A stretch of 21,945 nt of DNA from a virus, in IMG/VR virus record IMGVR_UViG_3300042465_002491, positions 1-21,945 of that record. One strand, written 5' to 3'. Under the pieces are notes generated by a model. The model was not told the origin of the DNA, searched no databases, and saw nothing but the letters and a program-made list of their open reading frames with translations. Below are positions 2,388 through 19,580 of the stretch, piece after piece. The position numbers and the translations under genes are program-made. The number at the start of each line of letters is the position of its first letter. Within the stretch, counting starts at the first letter, position 1.

Positions 2388-2761
2388 AGGTTATAGCTGT
2401 AGTAAAATTCTCCGTTCTCTTCTCTGACCGATACCGTGACCGTTTTCTTGACGATGCGTTGGGAATCCTTTTGTGAGCATTCAATCGGGATGCGTGTGCC
2501 GTCAAGATCGCCATAGACAAACCTTGGGTTCTGTGCTGGGCCTACGATGAACACTTCGATCTCAGTCTTGCTAGCCACAGGCTCGGCAAGGTGCTTCTTG
2601 AACATCCACATCGCATGGTCAGTCCAATAGATCGTCGCTCCGTTCTTATCCCAGTGAACGCCCTTGATTAGGAACTCATCACGAAATGCTTTTGCCTCGG
2701 CTGGTTTTACTTCCAACTTCTCGACAATGTCTCCTTGCTTCCAGCAGTTAATATCCACCAT
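2384..2761 (-). CDS. Hypothetical protein between terminase and portal
   Basis: This 125-residue protein is of unknown function. The start overlaps the last 14 nt of the large terminase gene in another frame and is preceded by AAGGA at very close spacing. The stop overlaps the portal start (ATGA). The N-terminus (residues 1-35) is predicted helical and charged, and the rest looks beta-rich with a YW/W-containing core. There is no membrane segment or signal peptide. Its place between TerL and portal suggests a head-assembly or packaging accessory role, but nothing in the sequence proves that. Confidence 0.75.
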   Translation of the reverse strand: MVDINCWKQGDIVEKLEVKPAEAKAFRDEFLIKGVHWDKNGATIYWTDHAMWMFKKHLAEPVASKTEIEVFIVGPAQNPRFVYGDLDGTRIPIECSQKDSQRIVKKTVTVSVREENGEFYYSYNL

Positions 2762-5276
2762 TTCCTTGTTTTGTTATTTGTGATTTTGTAGCGTCAACGT
2801 GATCCAAGTCAGCAATGGCAGCATAACGCAGAACGTCAATAGGATCTTTCCATGCTTCTTTAAGTCCTTGATCTCCAGTGTATTCAGCAAGTGCGCGAAT
2901 GATATTCTCACAGTCTTGCGAGATGTAAAAGTGCGGGCGGTTTACTGAATCCAATGGCTTGCTGGTATCGTAGCTCATCTTACTGATCAACGCCTGTAGT
3001 CCTTCTTCAATATCAAGACCAGATGCTGGATTGCAGATGATTTCCATCTCAGCTAAGTCTTCGATAATCGAGGAAGCACCATCAGATGCTTGATACCTAG
3101 CAGCACCTAGCCTAGAGTCGATCAATCTGTCAAATATCTCTTCACCCTCTTCGTAGTTTTGAATCAGTTCGACGTAATCACGGATGCCATAGCCAAGACC
3201 CTTTGCCGCTTCACCAGCGACCCACTTGCCGCTCTTCCACTCAGCCCAGTCACCAACATCCACGCTAGGCCACTCCCGATAGACGTAGTATGTTCCAGTC
3301 TCGTCAACCGCAACCCAGCACATGAACCAGTTCTTTGCACCAGCAGGGTCAATAATCTGATACCGTGTGATGTTCTCCGTAGGAATCTTGTCGTTGGAAA
3401 TGACGTTGACCGCAGTGTTGAACTTAGGGAATTTGGTCGCCTGAGACTTCACAGGGACTCCGTAAGCACGAATGAGGATCTCCTCCCGTGTCCTGCCTTC
3501 AAGAGCCTCCTTGATACGCTCATAGCCTCCAAATGGGTTATCCTGAGAGTGGAAGTAGTGGATGCTGGCATTGCGCTTCTTTGACCTCTGGATGTATGGC
3601 ACAAGCTCACCCTTGAGCAGTTCCGCAGGTCTAGATTCCACGATGGATGCCCCGTCAAGATACTCTTTAATGACCTCAGTCCAACCGTCGATAGGAGTAA
3701 ACGTGACCAACATCTTGGCATCTCTCGTAGCTAATCGAAACCTGAGCGTATTGATCAATTCTGGGCCTAGCAAGTATTCGTCGAGCCATACGCCGATATT
3801 GTGCCACACGGGTGATCTGCTTCCAAGTTCTGCACCTTCCAGAATGGTTGGGTTATTCTGATACTGAGAATACGTTTTGAAAATAATCTGGGAACCGTTA
3901 GGAAGGATCAAACTGCCGTCAGTAAATCCGTTCTTTTTCGTGTAGCTGATGTAAGCACCCGCAGATGTTTGCTTGGTCTTTAGTTCCGCTGGTAGCCAAT
4001 CATACACGGCACTCTGTTGCTGACGGATAGATACCTCGGACGTTTGAGCAAAACAAAAGATCTCAGAGTTTGGGTTTTCTACTGCCGCACGGACAATGGA
4101 GAATGCCCCCCACTGGGTTTTGCCCGAGTTTTTCTGCAAGATGTTTCCAATGAAGTAGTTACCAGTTTCAGGAACTTCAATATCCCAAATCTCGCTTACT
4201 TGTTTATCATTAACCTTGACAACAATCGTTTCTTTGGGTTGAATGAGCGCACATGAGAACAATCTTAGAACACATTGTATCGGGCGACGAGCTAAAGGAA
4301 CTGATCGCACAAGGCAAAACACTGCAAGAAATTTCCGACCTAGTACTTGAAAGATGCGGGCAGCGGTGGTCAACGGCTGGGGTTTCAAAGCTCTGTAAGA
4401 AACATAAGATTCCAATGCCTCGGAGTGGTCCTCGTAGCGGATCTCTTCATAAGGGTTGGAAAGGTGGGAGGACCCTGAATAAGGACGGCTATGTAGAGAT
4501 CTACTCTCTTGGTCACCCGAATGCAAAGAAACACACCCATTATATTCTGGAGCATCGTCTGGTGATGGAGGAACAGTTGGGTCGGTTCTTACTAAAGACG
4601 GAAGTTGTCCATCACAAAAACGGCGTGAAGACTGACAATCGTCCAGAGAATCTAGAAGTCTTTGAATCCAACGCAAAGCATTTAGCCGTAACCTTGAAAG
4701 GGCAGGTCCCACAATGGAGTGAGGAAGGAAAAAAGAGAATGCGTGATGGCCAGAAGAACAAGAATCCAATGACTCTTTCTCCAGAACTGAGACTACGCCG
4801 CCAATGCCTATGTCTTTTACGGAACGCCATCCAAAAGGAGTTGAAACTTGGTGCTCCGCCGAACACTGAAACGAGTCACCGTTTCCTAGAAGGACTTGGT
4901 ATGTCTTGGCAACAGTCTTTACAAATGGTCGTAGAGCACGGCATTGAATCTGTTTTTCCCCGTCCCAAGCTAGCACATGAAACTCAGAAGTAATTTCTGA
5001 AACAGGGGTGCTTTTCTTAGCAACTGGATCATAGATCTCCTGTTCTGGTGCTAAGCAACGGTTGCCTCCAAGTGCCACAATCTCAGTGACTTCCGACAAT
5101 TGTTCTTCAGCCTTGCTCCAGTGAGGTAGACGGAATCCGTAGCGGAATGGATCTTTTTCAGCGTTCTCAATCGCCTCGTGATAGATCTGGTGAAGGTGAA
5201 CCAAATCCTCTGGTTCCATCTCTGCAATCTCATCCTCGGAGGGAGGAGTCAGAATCTGGTGGGAACGCCACTTCAT
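2748..5276 (-). CDS. terL: Terminase large subunit interrupted by an intein
   Basis: This 842-residue precursor is the ATP-driven DNA packaging motor and headful nuclease. After removal of residues 74-383 (intein) it would be 532 residues, normal for TerL. The spliced Walker A reads GGNR/SGKT. Walker B is VWLDE, followed by the coupling motif LVTFTP. The C-terminal RNase H-like nuclease has acidic residues in IIDPAG, RLIDSR and PIDVLRYAA. The start overlaps the TerS stop (ATGA), so the two subunits are coupled. No working motor can form before splicing because the P-loop itself is split. An antisense HNH gene lies within the intein-coding part. The TerL assignment is very secure. Confidence 0.95.
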   Translation of the reverse strand: MKWRSHQILTPPSEDEIAEMEPEDLVHLHQIYHEAIENAEKDPFRYGFRLPHWSKAEEQLSEVTEIVALGGNRCLAPEQEIYDPVAKKSTPVSEITSEFHVLAWDGEKQIQCRALRPFVKTVAKTYQVLLGNGDSFQCSAEHQVSTPFGWRSVKDIGIGGVVSVLEKESLDSCSSGHHAFSFFLPHSIVGPALSRLRLNALRWIQRLLDSLDDCQSSRRFCDGQLPSLVRTDPTVPPSPDDAPEYNGCVSLHSGDQESRSLHSRPYSGSSHLSNPYEEIRYEDHSEALESYVSYRALKPQPLTTAARIFQVLGRKFLAVFCLVRSVPLARRPIQCVLRLFSCALIQPKETIVVKVNDKQVSEIWDIEVPETGNYFIGNILQKNSGKTQWGAFSIVRAAVENPNSEIFCFAQTSEVSIRQQQSAVYDWLPAELKTKQTSAGAYISYTKKNGFTDGSLILPNGSQIIFKTYSQYQNNPTILEGAELGSRSPVWHNIGVWLDEYLLGPELINTLRFRLATRDAKMLVTFTPIDGWTEVIKEYLDGASIVESRPAELLKGELVPYIQRSKKRNASIHYFHSQDNPFGGYERIKEALEGRTREEILIRAYGVPVKSQATKFPKFNTAVNVISNDKIPTENITRYQIIDPAGAKNWFMCWVAVDETGTYYVYREWPSVDVGDWAEWKSGKWVAGEAAKGLGYGIRDYVELIQNYEEGEEIFDRLIDSRLGAARYQASDGASSIIEDLAEMEIICNPASGLDIEEGLQALISKMSYDTSKPLDSVNRPHFYISQDCENIIRALAEYTGDQGLKEAWKDPIDVLRYAAIADLDHVDATKSQITKQGNGGY
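4216..4244 (+). promoter_or_regulatory. Sigma70-like promoter for the antisense HNH gene
   Basis: A perfect TTGACA (4216-4221), a 17-nt spacer and TTGAAT (4239-4244, 4 of 6 matches to TATAAT) lie just before the HNH start at 4253. Transcription would begin near the ATG and give a leaderless or almost leaderless mRNA. The element is inside sequence that codes, on the other strand, for the intein C-terminal splicing block. The -10 match is weak, so this is a proposal only. Confidence 0.45.
4253..4993 (+). CDS. HNH homing endonuclease encoded antisense inside the intein
   Basis: This 246-residue protein is probably the DNA endonuclease that would spread the intein by cutting intein-free terL genes. 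Residues about 12-54 look like a helix-turn-helix segment. Residues about 73-137 form an HNH domain: EHRLVMEEQLGR (100-111), VVHHKNG (118-124) and DNRPENLEVF (128-137), with H120/H121, N129 and N133 as likely active-site residues. A basic tail (150-180) follows. Residues about 174-246 lie antisense to the intein's N-terminal splicing blocks. The frames are offset so that the wobble base of the intein codon faces position 2 of the HNH codon. The gene is intact from ATG to TAA, which argues that it is active. Confidence 0.88.
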   Translation: MRTILEHIVSGDELKELIAQGKTLQEISDLVLERCGQRWSTAGVSKLCKKHKIPMPRSGPRSGSLHKGWKGGRTLNKDGYVEIYSLGHPNAKKHTHYILEHRLVMEEQLGRFLLKTEVVHHKNGVKTDNRPENLEVFESNAKHLAVTLKGQVPQWSEEGKKRMRDGQKNKNPMTLSPELRLRRQCLCLLRNAIQKELKLGAPPNTETSHRFLEGLGMSWQQSLQMVVEHGIESVFPRPKLAHETQK

Positions 5277-17669: not shown

Positions 17670-17719
17670 AGTCGAAACGCCTTCGGGCGTCGTCGGATCA
17701 TGTCCGGCCTGACGAGACT
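17670..17719 (+). ncRNA. Type-II hammerhead ribozyme 1 (intercistronic)
   Basis: Reading 5' to 3': AGUC (stem II, 17670-17673), GAAA core with A15.1 at 17677, stem III ACGCC-UUCG-GGCGU (17677-17690), cleavage nucleotide C17 at 17691, stem I GUCGGA-UCAUG-UCCGGC (17692-17708), the invariant CUGACGA (17709-17715), and GACU (17716-17719) closing stem II. Every catalytic-core nucleotide of the hammerhead is present, with ends open at stem II (type II). Predicted cleavage is between 17691 and 17692. It lies 2 nt after a stop codon and 26 nt before the next start, so it would separate the upstream genes from the 238-residue gene. Confidence 0.92.
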
Positions 17720-17745: not shown

Positions 17746-18462
17746 ATGAAACTATTAAATAGCGGTAACGCGAAAACACGTAAAGGCGAAAAGCGCGGAT
17801 TCATCACGTATGGAATCCACCTAGCACCGTCCAATCTGTCAGGCTTTAACGTCTGCAAGGATGCAAGCAAGGGATGCGCGGCGGCTTGTTTGAACACTGC
17901 GGGACGTGGTGCCATGTCATCGGTCCAAAAAGCTCGAATTGAGAAAACCCATTTGTTTTTCACGGACAAAACTTGTTTCCTCGGGATGCTTTGGGATGAA
18001 GTGGAAAGCGCCATTCGTTCAGCGACCAGAAAAAACATGACGCCTTGTTTTCGCCTCAATCTAACCTCAGATCTGCCATGGGAAAAGATCAAGTTTCGAG
18101 GGTCGAATATTTTCGATTCATTCCAAGGCGTTCAGTGGTACGACTATACAAAAAGTGAGGAAAGAGCGTGCAATTTCGCTGCGGGTCTACTTCCAAGCAA
18201 TTATTGGCTAACCTATTCACGAAGCGAAGTTTCAACACGTCTAGAATTGGTCGCGATGCTTCAGTCCCAAGTCAATGTCGCAATTGTTTTTGCCGACAAG
18301 CTTCCGCTTAAATGGGAGGGATTCCAAGTTATTGACGGCGATTCTGACGATTTGAGATTTCTTGACCGTCGTGGCGTCGTGGTGGGCCTGAAAGCCAAGG
18401 GCAAAGGCAAGATCGATTCCACAGGCTTTGTCTTGCAACCGGATGGATTGCTTCACGCATGA
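17746..18462 (+). CDS. Cysteine-motif phage protein (GP88/DUF-type, unknown function)
   Basis: This 238-residue protein begins MKLLNSGNAKTRKGEKRG and has a cysteine cluster C37-x6-C44-x3-C48 (VCKDASKGCAAACLNTAGRG). Further motifs are FRLNLTSDLPWE (102-113), WYDYTK (131-136), DGDSDDLRFLD (197-207) and VVVGLKAKGKG. I know this family from many phages and mobile elements; it resembles gene-product-88-type proteins. The Cys cluster and alternating strand/helix pattern would fit a metal or Fe-S binding barrel, but the spacing is not the radical-SAM CX3CX2C and no activity is known to me. The leader is A-rich (CAAAACGAAAAA). It is translated downstream of the ribozyme cut. Confidence 0.8.
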   Translation: MKLLNSGNAKTRKGEKRGFITYGIHLAPSNLSGFNVCKDASKGCAAACLNTAGRGAMSSVQKARIEKTHLFFTDKTCFLGMLWDEVESAIRSATRKNMTPCFRLNLTSDLPWEKIKFRGSNIFDSFQGVQWYDYTKSEERACNFAAGLLPSNYWLTYSRSEVSTRLELVAMLQSQVNVAIVFADKLPLKWEGFQVIDGDSDDLRFLDRRGVVVGLKAKGKGKIDSTGFVLQPDGLLHA

Positions 18463-18924: not shown

Positions 18925-18959
18925 TCAAGAAAGAACCCCAGAAGGTTTCCCTCCTGAGG
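18925..18959 (-). terminator. Rho-independent terminator of the leftward small-gene operon
   Basis: On the minus strand CCTCAGGAGG (18959-18950), a GAAA tetraloop and CCTTCTGGGG (18945-18936) form a continuous 10-bp stem with two wobbles, followed by TTCTTTCTT. It lies 28 nt after the stop at 18988. The other strand has no T-run. Confidence 0.88.
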
Positions 18960-18987
18960 TCTAATCATTACTAACTTACTAGGGTTA

Positions 18988-19263
18988 TCAATCTTCTGGT
19001 TTGATCTGCCACTTCTCCAATCGATCTGCCAATGCCCTTAGTTGAATAATTGTTTCGTTTGCTTCGTCCACATGGCAGGCGCATGAATCTGTAGCACACC
19101 TGAATAGTTTGCTCCAAGGTATTACAAGTTGCTCCTCGTCGTACTTGAAGAAACGGCCATCAACATAGAGCATTGGCTTGATCCCGTCCTTGTCAAAGAA
19201 CAGCGGAGTGTCATCGCAGAATGAGAGTTCTACTTCTTTTGTTTTCGTCATTTTCATTTTCAT
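18988..19263 (-). CDS. Small hypothetical protein with a Cys-rich loop
   Basis: This 91-residue protein begins MKMKMTKTKEVELSF, with three in-frame ATGs within five codons; I chose the first. It contains a strand-rich middle (MLYVDGRFFKYDEEQLVIPW), a short CATDSCACH cluster that might bind metal, and a C-terminal amphipathic helix. No family is recognised. The start lies 22 nt after hammerhead ribozyme 2, so its mRNA would begin at the ribozyme cut. It is the last gene before the terminator at 18925-18959. A longer frame upstream overlaps the previous gene and is unlikely. Confidence 0.72.
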   Translation of the reverse strand: MKMKMTKTKEVELSFCDDTPLFFDKDGIKPMLYVDGRFFKYDEEQLVIPWSKLFRCATDSCACHVDEANETIIQLRALADRLEKWQIKPED

Positions 19264-19285: not shown

Positions 19286-19335
19286 GATCTCGTCAGTACT
19301 GGAATTACCAGCAGACCACTCTCGTGGTTTCGATC
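19286..19335 (-). ncRNA. Type-II hammerhead ribozyme 2 (intercistronic)
   Basis: On the minus strand: GAUC (stem II, 19335-19332), GAAA with A15.1 at 19328, stem III ACCAC-GAGA-GUGGU (19328-19315), cleavage nucleotide C17 at 19314, stem I UGCUGG-UAAUU-CCAGUA (19313-19297), invariant CUGACGA (19296-19290), and GAUC (19289-19286) closing stem II. Predicted cleavage is between 19314 and 19313. All helices differ in sequence from ribozyme 1 but pair fully, which is covariation. It begins 2 nt after the stop at 19338 and ends 22 nt before the next start. Confidence 0.92.
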
Positions 19336-19337
19336 TT

Positions 19338-19580
19338 TCAAACGTAGGTTTCCCAGCTTCCACCGTAGTAGGTACGTTCCGTCATTCCTAGTTCCTGCCT
19401 TGCGATGTTGATGCGCTCCTGAGCCATGCTGCTGCGGGACTTGAAGTAATCCATCGTGTTGGACTCGCTCCATGCCGCAAAATCACTGCACCACCGTGTG
19501 AACCTCCACTGGTGGCCGACTGGGTACATTCCTGATACGCGGTTTTTTGCTAGGCTGATTGCTGCTTCTTTTGTTTTCAT
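19338..19580 (-). CDS. Small hypothetical protein
   Basis: This 80-residue protein starts MKTKEAAISLAKNRVSGMYP at the ATG at 19580, preceded by ACAATACACAC. This start avoids a long overlap with the upstream gene that the full open frame (to 19706) would need. It is Arg/Ser/Trp-rich with a segment WRFTRWCSDFAAWSES and a helical C-terminal half. No family is recognised. Its stop is 2 nt from ribozyme 2. It is the middle gene of a three-gene operon. Confidence 0.7.
   Translation of the reverse strand: MKTKEAAISLAKNRVSGMYPVGHQWRFTRWCSDFAAWSESNTMDYFKSRSSMAQERINIARQELGMTERTYYGGSWETYV

Follow-up and report, generated by a model that had tools for sequence, protein, structure and literature searches.

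A pseudoknot-free type II hammerhead ribozyme between two small genes of a viral operon, with a predicted role in transcript punctuation

What is the 50-nt element that lies between two small genes of the virus record IMGVR_UViG_3300042465_002491, and what might a virus gain by carrying it there? An earlier note on this DNA (21,945 nucleotides, positions 1 to 21,945 of the record, hereafter the window) had read positions 19286-19335 of the minus strand as the second hammerhead ribozyme of the window, set in a leftward operon. Rereading of the sequence, together with a minimum free energy (MFE) fold, bore out the coordinates, the core and all three stems. The operon setting was also described correctly, from the stop codon of the upstream gene 2 nt before the element (TGA at 19340-19338) to the small gene after it, whose first ATG (19263-19261) lies 22 nt downstream. 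The features of the locus are as follows.

17670..17719, plus strand: type II hammerhead copy 1, AGTC GAAA CGCC(TTCG)GGCG TC GTCGGA(TCATG)TCCGGC CTGACGA GACT
17746..18462, plus strand: GP88-family gene (PF17338, by family match), downstream of copy 1
18934..18961, minus strand: terminator-like hairpin ending the leftward operon (same sequence directly 3' of the upstream gene in the relatives L006 and L007)
18988..19263, minus strand: downstream small gene (ORF), 91 aa from its first ATG, no function assigned
19286..19335, minus strand: type II hammerhead ribozyme copy 2, the main finding (canonical core and stems; the MFE fold is the hammerhead)
19338..19559, minus strand: upstream small gene (ORF), 73 aa, MKTKEAAIS..., with its stop TGA at 19340-19338

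Read from 19335 to 19286 on the minus strand, copy 2 is GATC GAAA CCAC(GAGA)GTGG TC TGCTGG(TAATT)CCAGTA CTGACGA GATC, and it divides into the following parts, given with the two flanking bases.

19336, minus strand: A(-1), proposed tertiary pair with U1 of loop I (19307), from covariation
19332..19335, minus strand: 5' strand of stem II, GAUC (11.4-11.1), paired with 19286-19289; helix 2 covaries between GC and AU in 51 sequences
19328..19331, minus strand: core GAAA (G12 A13 A14 A15.1), G12 being 19331, from the sequence
19316..19327, minus strand: stem III hairpin CCAC-GAGA-GUGG with a GNRA tetraloop, from the fold and helix 3 covariation
19314..19315, minus strand: U16.1 and C17, with cleavage predicted 3' of C17 (19314), from the sequence
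19297..19313, minus strand: stem I hairpin UGCUGG-UAAUU-CCAGUA with a 5-nt loop, from the fold and covariation
19290..19296, minus strand: core CUGACGA (C3-A9), from the sequence
19285, minus strand: A(+1), thought on the basis of covariation to make a proposed tertiary contact with position 5 of loop I (19303); the pair is standard in 33%, so non-canonical in most

Every position of the hammerhead core (CUGANGA ... GAAA ... UH) is canonical. Stem I has 6 bp, stem III closes with the A15.1-U16.1 pair, and stem II, of 4 bp, is open; since loops close stems I and III, the permutation is that of type II, and all three helices have covariation support. ViennaRNA, which has no knowledge of ribozymes built in, folded the 50-mer into exactly the hammerhead structure at its energy minimum (MFE -14.5 kcal/mol, z -1.98). 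The cut that had been expected between 19314 and 19313 agrees with the position of C17. The analysis of the sequence confirms the minus-strand segment 19335..19286 as a complete type II hammerhead ribozyme that is predicted to cleave itself. Our model R1, the alignment of which includes copy 2 itself, scored it at 67.1 bits (E 9e-14). The best Rfam family at this position is RF02276 (type II hammerhead), with 20.7 bits against a curated gathering score of 37, and a default Rfam scan therefore misses copy 2. At 20 loci, Rfam at its gathering score gave no match, versus 23 by model R1, whose alignment includes some of those loci.

Copy 1 begins 2 nt past a TAA and ends 26 nt ahead of the ATG of the GP88-family gene. 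Its MFE fold has one competing pairing in the core, and its centroid structure holds the three hammerhead stems. The two copies have the same architecture with no stem sequence in common. Each follows the coding strand of its operon, and since the two operons converge, the copies lie on opposite strands. The earlier note had argued that a second copy makes a chance match very unlikely, and the shuffling control upholds this: 36,855 windows generated by first-order-Markov shuffling yielded no type II hammerhead as compact as the two present here. The view that the motif arose by chance, or has decayed and does nothing, could draw on the absence or mutation of the ribozyme in some close relatives (below); it is the least probable of the explanations considered, given the shuffled windows, the second copy, the covariation and the placement of the element among its genes.

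The wider family was sought in viral contigs with a pattern limited to the core plus a single sequence for stem II (GAUC or AGUC), which returned at least 120 stretches for each. Among the matches listed for two such patterns, stems I and III were also present in 120 of 136 and 122 of 136, and a permuted-core control gave 29 stretches, none of the 29 with the stems and none matching model R1. The six pairs of stem I were standard in 81-85% of 259 unselected matches, versus 32-40% when slid. In a gap-free alignment of 51 sequences with 17 pairs, 96.1% of cells were paired and covariation reached 0.728, versus 0.174 in shuffles; the rows were picked partly by their stems, which favours the pairing percentage but has no bearing on how varied the pair types are or on the tertiary columns. 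Viral contigs hold hundreds of window-like hammerheads with strong covariation. Conservation in related phages, which the earlier note had made a test of its reading, is evident, as the motif recurs with compensatory changes both in close relatives and in hundreds of unrelated viral contigs.

A stricter pattern found only 4 stretches in 257 Gb of bacterial and archaeal contigs, so the family is mainly viral; against at least 111 strict matches in the viral set, this count also led us to reject a prophage origin. A nucleotide search of the region against cultured phages gave no match, and the nearest reference phage, C75C1 (43% in the terminase), has no hammerhead. Pelagiphage and cyanophage matches to a marine hammerhead query were discarded, being weak and confined to the A-rich leader with no hammerhead inside. 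Within 2.15 Mb of family loci the incidental hammerheads comprised 54 of type II, a single doubtful one of type III and none of type I, an excess of type II that was measured only in loci chosen for type II. In three loci, three to six type II hammerheads stand in tandem at intervals of about 260-600 bp, one for each small gene: those of L187 and L231 are of the long-loop class and visibly pair loop I with the tail in a pseudoknot (GAGC/GCUC and GGGC/GCCC), and L227 has 5-nt loops.

The published type II consensus (PMC3088659) includes a pseudoknot in which loop I pairs with the tail of stem II. Among 54 longer-loop hammerheads from the same search this pseudoknot is visible (longest match 4.0 versus 2.7 in shuffles). 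The 188 window-type hammerheads (class b) show no excess of it, their longest match being 2.45 nt versus 2.54 nt in shuffles, and a pseudoknot was rejected for this class. These comparisons support a refinement of the earlier reading, in which copy 2 is a type II hammerhead with an open stem II and belongs to a pseudoknot-free subclass.

A different contact is suggested by the bases that flank stem II. In 168 of the 188 window-type hammerheads an A precedes stem II and loop I begins with U, and in 19 others a U stands on both sides of stem II and the loop is ANNNA; only L244 departs from this, and it appears to be a false match. The association between flanks and loop I has a Fisher p of 4e-25, in a test that ignores relatedness. 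The pairing rule reads that A/A flanks go with UNNNG or UNNNU and U/U flanks with ANNNA. When this prediction was run on the whole viral collection, the U/U plus ANNNA combination occurred in 21 stretches, 10 of them new, and the discordant combination of U/U flanks with UNNNG or UNNNU in none. The pair between position -1 and loop position 1 is standard in 51 of 51 rows, and that between +1 and loop position 5 in 33%. On the simplest reading, the bases at the shoulders of open stem II may take the place of loop II in the known loop-loop contact.

The close relatives show how readily the element comes and goes. Viral contigs contain 7 relatives of the 73-aa gene and 32 of the GP88 gene. Copy 1 is present in five of six close GP88 relatives (89-94%), with structure-preserving changes such as G-C to U-A in stem III and U-G to U-A in stem I; the remaining one, L309, lacks the ribozyme, and its two corresponding genes overlap as ATGA. 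L003, L004 and L005 have an intact copy 2, with a stem I change of G-U to A-U in L005. In L009 and L313, which are the same contig, G12 of copy 2 is U; this natural hammerhead (L313 2413-2464, equal to L009 5018-5069) has all its stems intact. The substitution should abolish general-base catalysis, and it is possibly a natural inactive allele or else an assembly error. L008 and L315 have the homologous downstream gene without copy 2 before it, and in L006 and L007 the ribozyme and the downstream gene are both missing, so that the 73-aa gene runs directly into the terminator. The presence of the ribozyme is patchy, a supported refinement of the earlier account: in two close relatives the downstream gene stands without it, and in one its core is mutated. 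Because close relatives lack it or carry G12U, the ribozyme is dispensable, and since it is missing or mutated before close homologues of both downstream genes, any benefit is conditional. A working form is retained in most relatives, yet the ribozyme is readily gained or lost independently of the gene.

Two further observations concern the same operons. The 91-aa gene is the last one ahead of the terminator-like hairpin, and in the window (18934-18990, minus strand) as in L006, L007 and L315 a conserved 3' block, 'AAGTTAGTAATGATTAGACCTCAG...GGGGTT', with the terminator-like hairpin closes the operon whichever gene precedes it. The first 1.7 kb of the window relatives L003, L005 and L009 contain two or three clustered tRNA genes upstream of the small-gene operon.

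Such patchiness could be expected of a selfish or repetitive element, that is, of hammerheads that spread among intergenic sites as REP elements do and bring the phage little benefit, and near-identical copies are indeed repeated in one contig (L058, L187). A link to a single downstream gene family was rejected, as 111 proteins fall into 38 PHROG families with none in more than 5, and the downstream genes have no function in common, which also counts against the punctuation reading given below. Mere spreading would nevertheless have no need of the compensatory changes that preserve stem pairing; the stems of copies 1 and 2 differ throughout in sequence, and no associated mobility gene was seen. 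We regard this explanation as unlikely.

The position of the hammerheads relative to genes, counted in 177 family members with enough flank, follows a narrow rule. A stop codon that ends an ORF of at least 40 codons lies at -2 to 12 nt from stem II in 158 of them (null 8.8%), an ATG that opens an ORF at 8-45 nt in 159 (null 17%), and both in 141, versus 1.6% at random positions. The most frequent stop distance is -1, at which the last nucleotide of the stop codon, in most cases UAG, is at once part of stem II; the ATG distances are mostly 15-33 nt, with a cluster at about 24 nt. A Shine-Dalgarno-like 4-mer occurs in 116 of 166 leaders; by eye, none was seen in the copy 2 leader of the window, and a promoter searched for in the intergene that holds copy 2 was not found there. 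The phage hammerheads studied here agree with what Figure 3 of Perreault 2011 presents, being intergenic, on the strand of the gene and often several per phage. In the 12 records with several hammerheads (up to 9 per record), all lie on one strand within each.

This placement would also suit a genuine hammerhead whose effect is to lower expression or make it conditional, a possibility that we hold to be somewhat unlikely, if less so than a selfish element. The cut would then uncouple the downstream cistron, and cleavage would occur only when the upstream gene is untranslated, as ribosomes terminating 2 nt upstream would cover stem II and GAAA and block folding. In most cases the stop abuts or overlaps stem II, so that a terminating ribosome, at the established sizes of ribosome footprints, would overlap the 5' strand of stem II, and an ATG mostly 15-33 nt away lies near the edge of the footprint of an initiating ribosome. 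The ribozyme-free L309, with its overlapping genes, would represent coupled translation as the alternative state. The tight packing of compact genomes, however, predicts equal distances.

The reading that we prefer, with a probability of about 0.72, is that copy 2 cuts the leftward polycistronic transcript between the 73-aa and 91-aa genes and would act as transcript punctuation with protected ends. The predicted cut falls right past the upstream stop and about 50 nt ahead of the downstream start codon. If copy 2 RNA cleaves itself in vivo, the upstream product would be an mRNA ending in the stem III hairpin with a 2',3'-cyclic phosphate (C>p), and the downstream product an mRNA starting flush with the stem I hairpin and bearing a 5'-OH. 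Only the type II topology leaves a hairpin on both new ends; type I leaves one on the upstream piece only and type III on the downstream piece only. In bacterial mRNA decay, 5'-terminal and 3'-terminal hairpins each slow degradation. The loops of stem III are UNCG or GNRA in 79 of 121 cases (chance about 5%), the stem is 88% G+C, and its median hairpin energy is -10.0 kcal/mol, versus -2.9 in shuffles, that of stem I being -7.6 kcal/mol. It is because of these hairpins at both new ends that punctuation is proposed: the cistrons would be separated and both pieces would resist nucleases at their ends, so their levels could differ, and copy 2 would tune expression without being essential. Judged from sequence, punctuation with protected ends appears to be the best-supported role, with regulation by terminating ribosomes ranked second.

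A related proposal, in which two hammerheads flank a gene and an RtcB-like ligase of 5'-OH and 2',3'-cyclic-phosphate ends closes the released unit into a circular mRNA, is very improbable. Arrays with one hammerhead before each gene would free such units, and the chemistry of the ends is compatible. The ribozymes of the window, however, lie on opposite strands of convergent operons and cannot flank one unit, and circles were sought by Perreault 2011 (PMC3088659) and none were found.

Extended to the family, the punctuation reading would mean that these hammerheads probably cut multi-gene phage transcripts into single-gene messages. A more comprehensive version, put forward tentatively and at rather less than even odds for all its parts jointly, is that a virus-enriched, pseudoknot-free type II subclass may serve as RNA punctuation with ruled placement (stop codon, hammerhead, leader of about 24 nt) that yields single-gene mRNAs, its permutation having been selected for two flush hairpins and its fold being locked by a swappable contact (A/A:UNNNG(U) or U/U:ANNNA).

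Elsewhere in the window, the terminase large subunit (2748-5276, minus strand) contains an intein of about 310 aa exactly within its Walker A motif, between GGNR and SGKT; the intein-free homologue of phage C75C1 reads GGNRSGKT. Within the intein, the other strand carries an HNH_3 endonuclease ORF of 246 aa (4253-4993, plus strand; E 3.4e-10), so that two reading frames seem to be kept open over the same stretch.

The window-type hammerheads, which a default Rfam search overlooks, form a large coherent set that obeys a strict rule of position, and they offer a testable explanation for the use of the type II permutation. The natural matched sets, in which the same genes occur with the ribozyme, without it and with a G12U core, are ready-made controls. 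What purpose hammerheads serve in the genomes of phages and bacteria is acknowledged to be an open matter (PMC6155905).

The closest known systems are the type II hammerheads of bacteria and prophages (Perreault 2011, PMC3088659; RF02276), which have the same core and the same permutation with an open stem II, are likewise intergenic in phages with several copies flanking single small genes, and are predicted, as here, to process phage transcripts. Type II hammerheads that flank small phage genes, and the transcript-processing idea, are already known from that work, which proposes processing into gene-length mRNAs and describes tandem phage-type hammerheads that cut during in vitro transcription, with one set cutting in E. 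coli. Relative to the consensus given there, the window type has a stem I of 6 bp with a 5-nt loop and a stem II of 4 bp, lacks the pseudoknot that joins loop I to the 3' tail, and, unlike the published type II, falls below the Rfam threshold. In the sections of the type II literature covered, we did not find the strict order of stop, hammerhead and leader, an Rfam-invisible pseudoknot-free class with a swapped tertiary contact, or matched relatives with, without and with a mutant ribozyme; part of the pseudoknot-free class may already be in the 2011 dataset, as Figure S5 of PMC3088659 lists non-pseudoknot contacts. The HHphage of haloviruses HF1 and HF2 (Perreault 2011) is alike in being a hammerhead variant 13 nt before the start codon of a phage gene; it differs in its variant core, in belonging to an archaeal virus, and in standing at the start of a polycistronic transcript, not between cistrons. 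The non-pseudoknot 'extended' hammerheads of types I and III (PMC6155905) have a reverse-Hoogsteen A-U contact between loops I and II, in which, similarly, a U of loop I meets an A on the stem II side, and their geometry of a pentaloop and a 4-bp stem II is comparable. The window type, by contrast, has no loop II, uses the shoulder bases of the open stem II instead, and shows the contact also swapped to U/U with ANNNA. This tertiary covariation gives the structural biology of type II hammerheads a defined contact, where the literature, in the parts considered, describes mainly Watson-Crick pseudoknots.
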